A DNA stretch of 47,445 nt from an uncultured Selenomonadales bacterium (GTDB lineage: Bacteria > Bacillota > Negativicutes > Selenomonadales > Selenomonadaceae): the NCBI GenBank assembly GCA_900314765.1, contig OMWN01000079.1, positions 1-47,445 of the forward strand. Direction: 5' to 3'. Position 1 is the stretch's first letter, and the number at the start of each line of letters is the position of its first letter. The notes below the pieces were generated by a model. That model saw nothing but the letters and a program-made list of their open reading frames with translations. It did not search any database and had not been told where the DNA came from. Positions 3,763-38,170 of this stretch are shown here, piece by piece. Both the position numbers and the translations under genes were made by a program.

Positions 3763-5663
3763 TGGGCGATTTTCTGCCGATGACGCGGGCGGACATGAAG
3801 GCGCGCGGCTGGGATGAGCTCGATTTCATATTCGTGTCGGGCGACGCGTATGTCGACCACCCAAGCTTCGGCCCTGCCATCATCACGCGACTCTTAGAGT
3901 CACATGGCTATCGCGTCGGCATCATCGCTCAGCCCGATTGGCGCCGCGATGATGATTTTCGTGCGCTCGGCAAGCCGCGCCTCGGCTTTCTCGTGTCGAG
4001 CGGCAACATGGACTCGATGCTCGCGAAGTACACGGCGGCGAAGCGCATTCGCCATGTCGATGACTATTCGCCGGGCGGGCGCGCAGGTCTTCGCCCAGAG
4101 CGCGCCGTCATCGTCTACGCGAAAAAGCTGCGCGCAATTTATCCCGACGTGCCCATCATCATCGGCGGCATAGAGGCGAGCCTCAGACGATTTGTCCACT
4201 ACGACTATTGGAGCGACAGGCTCCGCCCTTCGGTGCTCGTGGACAGCGGCGCGGACCTTTTGATTTACGGCATGGGCGAGCGCGCGATGATAGAGGTTGC
4301 GGCAGACCTTCATCGCGGCGTTGACATAAAAAATATACAGGACGTGCATGGCACGTGCTACGTCGTGCCGAATTACGATTACACATACGATTATGTTGCG
4401 CTGCCGACGATGGACGAAATCTTGGGTGACAAGATGAAATTCGCCGAGGCGTACAAACTCGAGTATCTCGAGCAGGACGCCATACGCGGAAGGCGGCTCG
4501 TGCAGATGAACGGCAGTGCTCTCGTCGTGCAGAACCCGCCCGCCATGATGCTCACGGAGGCGGAGATGGACGAGGTGTATGACCTGCCATATACGCGGAC
4601 GTATCATCCGAGGTACGAGGCGGCGGGCGGCATTCCCGCGCTCAAAGAAGTCGAGTTCGGCATCATCAGTCACCGCGGCTGTTTCGGCGGCTGTAATTTT
4701 TGCGCCATCGTGTCGCATCAAGGGCGCATCGTGCAGCGGCGCAGTCATGAGTCGATACTGCGCGAGGCAAAAATCATCACGCAGCAACCCAGCTTCAAAG
4801 GATATATACACGACGTCGGGGGGCCGACGGCGAATTTCAGGCGCACGTCATGCGACGGCCAGCTGAAGCGCGGCACGTGCCGTGGCAAGGAATGTCTGTC
4901 GCCTGCGCCATGCCGTCAGCTCATCGCGGACCACAGTGACTACATAAAGCTGTTGCGCGAGGTGCGGGCGGTGCCCGGCGTGAAAAAGGTGTTTGTGCGT
5001 TCGGGCATACGATTTGATTATTTGATGGCGGCGCATGACGCGAAAGAATTTTTGCGCGAGCTCTGCGAAAACCACGTGAGCGGGCAGCTCAAAATCGCGC
5101 CGGAGCATATTTCTGACCGTGTGACGCGGCTCATGGGCAAATCGAACCGCGAAACATATATGAAATTTGTGCGTGAATTCAATAAGATGAATGAAAAGCT
5201 TCACAAGAAGCAATATCTTGTGCCGTATTTCATGTCGAGCCACCCGGGTGCGACGATTGACGACGCCATAGAGCTCGCGGAGTTCATTCATGAGCTCGGC
5301 TATCACCCGCAGCAGGTGCAGGACTTCATTCCGACGCCGGGGACGATTTCGACGGCGATGTACTACACGGGCGTCAATCCATTGACAGGGGAAAAGGTCT
5401 TTGTCGCGCGGAGGCCCGAGGAAAAAAGAGCACAGCGCGCATTGATGCAGTATTGGCTGCCAAAAAATTACGATATCGTATGCGATGCACTCGTGAAAGC
5501 GCACAGGCAGGATTTGATTGGCTACGGCAGGAAATGTCTGATTCGCCCACGGAAAACGGAAACGAGCGCGAAGGATAAGCGCGTGAAAATGAAAGTGCAA
5601 AATCAGAGAAAGAATGAGCCAGCGAGAAATGCGAAACGTGGGAAAACGCTAAGGAAACGCTGA
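3762..5663 (+). CDS. YgiQ family (UPF0313) radical SAM protein
   Basis: The 633-residue product matches the YgiQ family. The N-terminus (LPMTRADMKARGWDELDFIF, then GDAYVDHPSFG) is the characteristic cobalamin-binding-like region. The radical SAM cluster motif CxxxCxxC is at C307, C311 and C314, followed by a second cysteine-rich stretch (CDG..KRGTCRGKEC). The last 60 residues are Lys/Arg-rich and probably disordered. The reaction catalysed by the family is not established as far as I know. The ATG at 3762 is preferred over the overlapping GTG at 3759. The stop codon lies inside a repeated intergenic motif (5651-5670). Confidence 0.9.
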   Translation: MGDFLPMTRADMKARGWDELDFIFVSGDAYVDHPSFGPAIITRLLESHGYRVGIIAQPDWRRDDDFRALGKPRLGFLVSSGNMDSMLAKYTAAKRIRHVDDYSPGGRAGLRPERAVIVYAKKLRAIYPDVPIIIGGIEASLRRFVHYDYWSDRLRPSVLVDSGADLLIYGMGERAMIEVAADLHRGVDIKNIQDVHGTCYVVPNYDYTYDYVALPTMDEILGDKMKFAEAYKLEYLEQDAIRGRRLVQMNGSALVVQNPPAMMLTEAEMDEVYDLPYTRTYHPRYEAAGGIPALKEVEFGIISHRGCFGGCNFCAIVSHQGRIVQRRSHESILREAKIITQQPSFKGYIHDVGGPTANFRRTSCDGQLKRGTCRGKECLSPAPCRQLIADHSDYIKLLREVRAVPGVKKVFVRSGIRFDYLMAAHDAKEFLRELCENHVSGQLKIAPEHISDRVTRLMGKSNRETYMKFVREFNKMNEKLHKKQYLVPYFMSSHPGATIDDAIELAEFIHELGYHPQQVQDFIPTPGTISTAMYYTGVNPLTGEKVFVARRPEEKRAQRALMQYWLPKNYDIVCDALVKAHRQDLIGYGRKCLIRPRKTETSAKDKRVKMKVQNQRKNEPARNAKRGKTLRKR

Positions 5664-5710
5664 TTAGAAGTAGAAATATTTTTAAAATAAAGTGAAATGA
5701 AGGGAAAGCA

Positions 5711-20165: not shown

Positions 20166-21350
20166 ATGGCTAAACAGAAATTTGACAGAAGCAAACCGCA
20201 TGTCAACATTGGTACGATTGGTCACGTTGACCACGGCAAGACGACCCTCACGGCTGCAATCACGAAGGTCCTTTCCGAGAGAGGCGGCGCAGACTTCCTC
20301 GATTACAACATGATTGATAAGGCTCCAGAGGAGCGCGAGCGCGGCATCACGATCAACACCGCACACGTCGAGTATCAGACTGAGAAGCGTCACTATGCAC
20401 ACGTTGACTGCCCGGGCCATGCTGACTATGTCAAGAACATGATCACCGGTGCTGCTCAGATGGATGGCGCAATCCTCGTCGTCAGCGCTGCTGATGGCCC
20501 GATGCCTCAGACTCGTGAGCACATCCTGCTCGCTCGTCAGGTCGGCGTGCCAGCTATCGTCGTCTTCCTCAACAAAGTTGACCAGGTCGATGACCCGGAG
20601 CTCCTCGAGCTCGTCGAGATGGAGGTCCGTGATCTCCTCACTGAGTACGACTTCCCAGGCGACGATGTTCCAGTCGTCGCTGGCTCCGCACTCAAGGCTC
20701 TCGAGGGTGACCCAGAGCAGGAGAAGAAGATCCTCGAGCTCATGGACGCTGTCGATGAGTACATCCCAACGCCGACCCGCGACGTTGATAAGCCGTTCCT
20801 GATGCCAATAGAGGATGTCATGACGATTTCCGGCCGCGGCACTGTTGCTACGGGCCGTGTCGAGCGTGGCGTTCTGAAGCCAAATGACAGCGTTGAGATC
20901 GTCGGTATCCATGACACTCAGACGACTGTTGTCACGAGCATGGAGATGTTCCGCAAGACCCTCGATGAGGCTGTCGCAGGCGACAACATCGGTGCTCTTC
21001 TCCGCGGCATTGACCGTGACAAGGTCGAGCGTGGCCAGGTTCTCGCAAAGCCGGGCTCCATTCATCCACACACGAAGTTCAAGGCTCAGGTCTATGTCCT
21101 TACGAAGGAAGAGGGCGGCCGTCATACTCCGTTCTTCTCCAACTATCGCCCACAGTTCTACTTCCGCACGACGGATGTCACGGGCGTCATCACGCTTCCA
21201 GAGGGCACTGAGATGGTCATGCCTGGCGATAACGTCGAGATGAGCGTCGAGCTTATCACCCCAATCGCTATCGAGAAGGGTCTCCGCTTCGCTATCCGCG
21301 AGGGCGGTCACACGGTCGGCGCAGGCAGCGTCACTGAGATTGACGAATAA
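20166..21350 (+). CDS. tuf: Elongation factor Tu
   Basis: EF-Tu delivers aminoacyl-tRNA to the ribosome as a GTP complex. The 394-residue product shows [13 protein letters not shown], the [20 protein letters not shown] switch [22 protein letters not shown] and the C-terminal [15 protein letters not shown] at 20166 follows GGGAGG. Whether a second tuf copy exists cannot be judged from this window. A 333-bp structured gap follows. Confidence 0.99.
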
Positions 21351-21353
21351 TTC

Positions 21354-21483
21354 AAGGAAACGATGATTAATTAGGGTGGGAGTATTGACGAGAGATTTTT
21401 TCGTATAGCAAGGAGAGGCGAAGAAGCGTAGTGGTGCTACGCTGATGAGCATCGACGAAGATATACGGAAAAAGATCCGTCAA
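21354..21483 (+). repeat. Intergenic element with AAGGAAACGATGATTAA end and a large stem structure
   Basis: The motif at 21354-21370 recurs exactly at 38083-38099. It is followed by a near-continuous stem of about 18-20 pairs: TTGACG (21385-21390) with CGTCAA (21478-21483), then TTTTTTCGTATA (21396-21407) with TATACGGAAAAA (21462-21473, one G-T pair). Inside lies a 7-bp hairpin, AGCGTAG/CTACGCT (21425-21431 with 21437-21443). No coding capacity is seen. It may be a miniature mobile palindromic element or a structured leader for the S10 operon. Confidence 0.65.
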
Positions 21484-21516
21484 GACGACTGCTTGAAGTA
21501 AATAGGGTGTCATATA

Positions 21517-21626
21517 AAGGGCGGCGAATTCGTCGCCCTTATGTATGGCAACAAGCCTTGTTTATGAATAAAATATACAAAGCTTAAATGCGATGAAGCG
21601 GCAGATTGCTCGCCCATCGTGGCGAG
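21517..21626 (+). other. S10 operon leader hairpins
   Basis: A 10-bp hairpin with loop AATT spans 21517-21540 and lacks a following T-run. A second, CTCGCC/GGCGAG, is at 21609-21614 with 21621-21626, about 58 bp before the rpsJ start. AT-rich DNA between them (21556-21585) contains -10-like TAAAAT and TATACA, but no convincing -35 was found. This may be an untranslated leader used in autogenous control of the S10 operon; that is not shown by the sequence. Confidence 0.4.
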
Positions 21627-21683
21627 GGAACTGGCGCTGAGAATTGTCGGGGCCATGAGTTCCGGCGTAAGGAGGAAAACATT

Positions 21684-36353: not shown

Positions 36354-36398
36354 AGGAAACGCCGATTGATGTGGACAAAACTTCAATTATCGTTTCCT
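36354..36398 (+). repeat. 45-bp palindromic element in the ilvN leader
   Basis: AGGAAACG (36354-36361) and its exact reverse complement CGTTTCCT (36391-36398) end a 45-bp unit; pairing continues imperfectly with ATTG/CAAT. The left end matches the AAGGAAACG motif found at 5651, 21354 and 38083. It ends 50 bp before the ilvN start. Confidence 0.6.
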
Positions 36399-38082: not shown

Positions 38083-38099
38083 AAGGAAACGATGATTAA
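38083..38099 (+). repeat. Second exact copy of the 17-bp AAGGAAACGATGATTAA motif
   Basis: Identical to 21354-21370. It begins 3 bp after the ilvC terminator T-run and runs into a small hairpin (TGATTAAAAATCA, 38094-38106). No matching right end of an element was found nearby. Confidence 0.6.
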
Positions 38100-38170
38100 A
38101 AATCATATTCCCATGAATTTGTAAATTTGTGAAATACGATAAAATCACCTTACTACCGCCTGCGGGAGCA

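Follow-up and report, generated by a model that had tools for sequence, protein, structure and literature searches.

A palindrome between tuf and rpsJ in a Selenomonadaceae genome as a probable IS5-type MITE of a class-wide family with a strand-specific fold

The stretch of DNA analysed in this work (the window) comprises 47,445 nucleotides of contig OMWN01000079.1 (assembly GCA_900314765.1), from an uncultured Selenomonadales bacterium. In it, the tuf coding sequence (20166-21350, + strand) precedes rpsJ, which has the same orientation, and the gap between both genes was considerably longer (333 nt) than in most relatives (around 170 nt). A palindrome of 157 nt (21356-21512) begins 6 nt beyond the stop codon of tuf and is followed, on its 3' side, by the 24-nt terminator palindrome of tuf (21517-21540, + strand; a terminator-like scan match conserved in relatives) and by a probable S10 ribosomal-protein leader belonging to rpsJ itself (21585-21668, + strand), also conserved in relatives. 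This leader matched RF03136 with 27.7 bits, under the gathering score of 35.1, and its orthologue in a relative (L150, 1400-1484) obtained 44.4 bits, above the gathering score; the Rfam model may under-represent the S10-Clostridia leaders of Selenomonadaceae.

The palindrome was delimited by alignment of copies and by a covariance model, R1, which was built from other copies and placed a complete element at 21356-21512 on the + strand (100.2 bits, E 5.4e-21, all 158 positions). A previous sequence-only reading had rightly seen a palindrome here, but its span, 21385-21483, corresponds to the core alone. The near-continuous outer stem that it described was recovered, with TTTTTTCGTATA (21396-21407) facing TATACGGAAAAA (21462-21473) at 92% complementarity and further pairing of GTATTGACG (21382-21390) with CGTCAAGAC (21478-21486), as was the enclosed 7-bp hairpin AGCGTAG/CTACGCT (21425-21443, + strand). 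Inverted-repeat search and helix covariation set the arms of this stem, which is internal with respect to the whole element, at 21385-21407 (5' arm, TTGACG and TTTTTTCGTATA) and 21462-21483 (3' arm), both on the + strand; in the helix matching it 13 of 15 consensus pairs changed on both sides across genera, and the apical helix, delimited by the same means, had eight pairs, five of them with changes on both sides. The region 21370-21500 folded with an energy of -49.4 kcal/mol, compared with -26.8 ± 3.0 in shuffled sequences (z = -7.5; z = -7.1 for the whole element against shuffles), and the data speak for one folded strand more than for a cruciform-like structure; in this copy it is the + strand, co-directional with tuf and rpsJ.

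The 17-bp motif noticed at 21354, which recurs exactly at 38083, turned out to be the terminal inverted repeat of the element. Its core, GGAAACGATGATTAAT (21356-21371, + strand), differs by one mismatch from the genome-wide repeat GGAAACRCTGATTA, whereas the right repeat, GAAGTAAATAGGGTGTCA (21495-21512, + strand), has around seven mismatches to the consensus GAAATAATCAGTGTTTCC. Because this right end is decayed, the boundary at 21512 is approximate and the target duplication of the focal copy is unclear, no clean one being found. The empty site of a same-genus relative (G001) reads GTCAA joined to TATAAGGGCGG and the occupied site reads TTCAA, the element and then TATAAAGGGCGG; by this comparison the left flanking target sequence is TCAA (21352-21355, + strand), and a TCAA target duplication may have left the TCA at 21510-21512 as its remnant.

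The sequence-only reading had raised the possibility of a mobile palindromic repeat, to be checked by a genome-wide search, and both proved well founded. The search with 21370-21500 yielded 40 matches in the source genome at E <= 0.001, those listed being 80-98% identical, so that the genome holds at least 40 dispersed, intergenic copies; the case for mobility is completed, as described below, by target duplications, by relatives lacking the insertion and by transposase genes lying between matching ends. All of the 23 own-genome copies that were fully assessed are intergenic. When copies were aligned together with their flanks, similarity extended outward to the inverted ends GGAAACRCTGATTAATT ... 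AATAATCAGTGTTTCC, giving full copies of 155-157 bp (typically 156-157 bp) without coding sequence. The end motif GGAAACRCTGATTA, allowing up to one mismatch, occurred at 146 sites in the genome, in contrast with none for the reversed control. This genome is also rich in short palindromes (32-51 bp) bounded by the same ends, and contains further size forms of 79, 98, 106, and 143 bp; all of these look like internal deletions sparing the ends. In the window, the same end sequence was present in short palindromes at 36355-36397 (43 bp) and 38085-38112 (28 bp), and a lone, decayed copy of it at 5653-5666. The plasmids and phages searched gave no match to the element.

Insertion left a recognizable trace. 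In the source genome an exact 4-bp duplication flanked 12 of 54 paired elements, full-length and short forms together, vs. 3.2 expected, and identity was 133 vs. 109 ± 4.7. In G035, a recent burst has left copies most of which, among those sampled, are identical to one another at 155-160 of 160 bases. Considering 40 recent copies drawn from this genome and from G003, G123, and G305, the exact 4-bp duplication appeared in 28 of them, the shuffled mean being 8.9 and the maximum 19, and YTAR was present on 30 and 32 of 40 sides. IS5 is reported to duplicate a YTAR target (PMC10359306). Relatives carry IS5-group insertion sequences of about 1.18-1.29 kb with the same ends and YTAR-like flanks; the best DDE_Tnp_1 genes of G123 and G003 (L269 and L270) are flanked by these ends, 1.25 kb apart, and the transposon in L270 lies between TTAA and TTAA. 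The transposase of these sequences shows the IS5-type domains DUF772 (PF05598) and DDE_Tnp_1 (PF01609), according to Pfam. Among named relatives, insertion sequences with the same ends occur in Selenomonas artemidis, S. massiliensis, and several Lachnospiraceae. Across 151 genomes of the family, 26 had the transposase in intact or broken form, and at least 18 of these 26 also scored for the element. Wide-spaced pairs of ends in G019 and G030, which resembled transposons, were discarded as such, as they enclose ordinary genes, e.g., recA and genes of the ftsZ region.

Neither the cognate transposase nor a fragment of it was found in the 98%-complete draft of the source genome, so that the mobilizer acting here is deduced from relatives. 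Two DDE_Tnp_1 genes of this genome (L119 and L120) were considered as the parent transposon and rejected, since they lack the ends of the element; beside the transposase gene in L120 there is a sequence resembling a type I-C CRISPR repeat (GTCGCGCCCCTCGCGGGCGCGTGGATTGAAAT, 110-150). The element is short, multi-copy, and non-coding, with inverted ends, target duplications, and, in relatives, an autonomous partner with the same ends, as is characteristic of MITEs. Given the IS5-group elements of relatives with the same ends and target duplications, it is almost certainly an IS5-type MITE, and mobilization in trans by an IS5-group transposase is the mechanism that we infer from these data. Such a transposase would recognize the ends of about 16 bp and move the element into a YTAR-like, A+T-rich site, and insertion would duplicate 4 bp of the target. 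The MITE resembles the insertion sequences of Selenomonas and Lachnospiraceae in its terminal repeats (GGAA.CRCTGATTAA) and in the 4-bp, YTAR-like duplications, but does not code for a protein, and apart from those 16 bp or so of end sequence its interior bears no relation to them. The interior is not transposase-derived; it forms an imperfect hairpin of 138-162 nt, kept across the class, in which the + strand folds far better than the - strand and the purine-rich internal loops stand at fixed places.

Two other identities were weighed. A strongly structured element located upstream of rpsJ on the same strand could be a cis-regulatory leader RNA of rpsJ or the S10 operon, as the sequence-only reading had proposed, and it does occupy the same gap as the S10-Clostridia leader (RF03136). 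However, it precedes the tuf terminator, it has no match to RF03136, the S10-type leader at 21585-21668 is a separate element, and its numerous further copies sit in unrelated intergenic places. The alignment of the tuf-rpsJ gap across relatives, which had been suggested as a check, was also decisive in this respect: the terminator and the leader are conserved, but the palindrome is not. It was found neither in the same-genus relative G001 (L122) nor in any other relative with a readable gap, all of which have the terminator and the S10-type leader only, and among them the insertion was seen in this species alone. Considering its position upstream of the terminator, its absence from the gap of relatives, and the separate leader downstream, the palindrome is therefore not the rpsJ leader, an identity that we regard as very improbable; from the sequence comparison it is best described as a recent passenger in the tuf 3' region, between stop codon and terminator, where it would be transcribed at the 3' end of the tuf mRNA as a passive hairpin. 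A palindrome of the REP/REPIN type, spread by a RAYT (Y1 transposase), would likewise be small and dispersed, with GTAG/CTAC in an apical hairpin as seen here, and REPs constitute one of the major classes of repeats of this sort (PMC3733652). This identity is contradicted by the terminal inverted repeats, the 4-bp target duplication, and the ends matching IS5-group transposons, and a RAYT/IS200 mobilizer was rejected on account of the absence of any Y1_Tnp gene (PF01797) in the source genome; its likelihood is negligible. The complete genome of one relative, G030, contains six near-identical Y1_Tnp genes (L160, L162, L164, L166, L168, and L169), corresponding to a separate, active IS200-type element.

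The IS5-type MITE family extends well beyond the source genome. Of 30 genera sampled in the family Selenomonadaceae, 14 contained the element by DNA similarity, at about 70% identity, its length staying constant at around 156-161. With R1, the range extended to the class Negativicutes, where the element was detected in 84 of 250 genomes, belonging to 33 of the 92 genera sampled and to many families, with a recurring core fold of 138-162 nt. Copy numbers reached 114 in G159 and 75 in G305. No Rfam family matched above its gathering threshold in the window or in ten loci from other genera; PrrB_RsmZ and hammerhead, which appeared with weak scores far below threshold, were discarded as identities. 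Open-access papers yielded no report of this repeat in Selenomonas or other Negativicutes. R1 can serve as a model resembling that of an RNA family for annotating many repeats that lie outside Rfam.

Pairing was conserved across this range, contrary to the outcome that the sequence-only reading had named as refuting its proposal. Among the 42 consensus pairs, 28 showed changes in both partners when 24 sequences, each taken from a different genus, were compared. Doubly changed cells amounted to 172, whereas shuffles gave 54 ± 6 and slid controls no more than 38; 95% of the cells pair, vs. at most 55% in the slid controls. As inverted ends alone could yield such covariation at the DNA level, the test that matters is strand asymmetry, for which the arms of 50 elements, representing many families, were aligned in a manner neutral to the type of mismatch. 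The + strand was the more stable one in all 50 elements. Purine-purine (G.A-type) mismatches outnumbered pyrimidine-pyrimidine (C.U) ones by 481 to 18 and G.U exceeded A.C by 273 to 100, counts in which elements within one genome and lineages across genera are non-independent observations; 84% of the unpaired bases were purines. It is thus probable that selection acts on one strand in its folded form, as a nucleic acid that would most simply be RNA. The idea that RNA folding matters, already present in the sequence-only reading, holds for a fold conserved on one strand across the class, as a property of the element family, but not for control of rpsJ.

In 30 own-genome copies, 26 private stem variants break pairs, 8 make GU, and 5 compensate, and strand-sensitive transitions keep pairing on the + strand 13 times vs. 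12 on the - strand, in a small sample of about 40 variants. In tandem settings 11 copies were co-directional with the genes and 4 opposed, a bias that was not significant (P = 0.12; gene orientations from a codon-usage gene caller checked on the window, own-genome copies only). Thus, a host function at each insertion was rejected, as neither private mutations nor gene orientation in this genome gave any sign of it, and individual insertions appear not to be maintained. Since private mutations show no upkeep of the fold, we infer that it is selected in propagating elements and not insertion by insertion; it is for the elements that propagate that the fold seems to matter.

These same observations, private mutations that are mostly pair-breaking without strand bias and the lack of a significant gene orientation, are what would be anticipated for a MITE without any RNA role, in which the palindrome represents extended transposase-binding ends and the strand bias an accidental inheritance. 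We consider this improbable, given that so many pairs co-vary across genera, that the mismatch types are extremely strand-asymmetric in elements of many families, and that the ends of the IS5 group match the element only over the terminal 16 bp or so. The conserved form could also be folded single-stranded DNA, for instance on the lagging strand, aiding transposition or preventing instability of the palindrome: G.T and tandem G.A pairs form in DNA too, and folding of one DNA strand would presumably give the same asymmetry. IS5-type enzymes, however, belong to the DDE transposases, for which double-stranded ends are the expected substrate, and the fold contains many pairs of the GU type, which are more stable in RNA than G.T in DNA; this form is accordingly rated as unlikely. 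The explanation as a whole, an IS5-mobilized MITE with a one-strand conserved fold, remains highly probable. In it, the + strand would act as RNA at a step affecting the element's own spread or its tolerance by the host, e.g., by forming, in host mRNAs that read through it, a hairpin that is self-contained and free of a terminator, as ERIC does, although any particular reason for the strand selection is put forward with reserve and is rather doubtful.

The closest known architecture is that of ERIC (IRU), an intergenic, long imperfect hairpin of 127 bp with high and variable copy numbers across many genera (PMC10969869, PMC2229807), features which, with a similar size, the Negativicutes family shares. 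In both families one strand folds better and the internal loops are purine-rich; in six E. coli ERIC copies from four distinct loci (L405-L410), purine-purine mismatches numbered 9-12 vs. 1-3 for pyrimidine-pyrimidine, and the + strand was 9-13 kcal/mol more stable. R1 matched ERIC weakly (11.7 bits, E 0.009), aligning the AAGG and GACGCA loop letters, a result that may be taken as a lead on common architecture and not as proof of descent. The two differ in length, ends, and duplication, ERIC termini carrying TA (PMC2229807), and the cited literature names no mobilizer for ERIC, whereas that of the MITE family is identifiable as IS5-group. The Negativicutes family works like ERIC but is not ERIC. 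Other repeats are comparable in part. The bcr1 repeat of the Bacillus cereus group is a high-copy, mobile, MITE-like intergenic repeat that is frequently found in the untranslated regions of transcripts (PMC3446304, PMC6542083), and mRNAs commonly include bcr repeats (PMC3446304), but BCR mobility is associated with TTTAT motifs and the elements are confined to that group, as opposed to the YTAR-type, class-wide family. Correia (NEMIS) elements of Neisseria are MITEs of 107-155 bp whose transcript hairpins act on mRNA through RNase III (PMC2229807), but have TA-type termini and other ends. Transcripts of both ERIC and Correia have been reported to affect mRNA stability (PMC2229807, PMC10969869).

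The palindrome behind tuf is a new member of an IS5-type MITE family and its insertion is in itself ordinary; the interest lies in a class-wide, strand-specific fold together with an identifiable mobilizer. For decades, ERIC-like repeats have served as typing markers, and this family provides handles on what mobilizes them and on why their folds are conserved: recently inserted copies whose target duplications are clean, the matching IS5-group transposase in cultured Selenomonas artemidis and S. massiliensis, and a fold followed over 33 sampled genera. Because ERIC shares the strand-specific architecture, 'RNA-shaped MITEs' could represent a kind of mobile element that is general among bacteria. 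That a class-wide selfish family of the Negativicutes carries a conserved structured RNA serving its own spread or host tolerance, and that this kind, so far unnamed, is perhaps general, is a suggestion to which we give somewhat under an even chance. A direct test of whether the RNA fold of a DNA transposon affects its spread is now possible.

Some further arrangements were observed among the copies of the source genome (G000). Short palindromes occurred in adjacent pairs, the two units measuring 40 bp each or 44 bp each and being separated by a few bases (L045, 1083-1165; L033, 551-640), as if one unit had been copied beside the other. Draft contigs break within the element (at the end of C33 and at the start of C78 and C32, two of them near the central hairpin), which indicates that the assembly lacks some of the copies or else a longer form. 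Several copies (L008, L009, L010, L013, L017, L018, and L022) are embedded in another repeated segment, with GTCCGAAGTAACTTAGCAATTTC on one side and GGCTCCGAAGCGGCGTGTTTTCGCTTTTGCCGC on the other, thus pointing to a second, larger repeat family in this genome.
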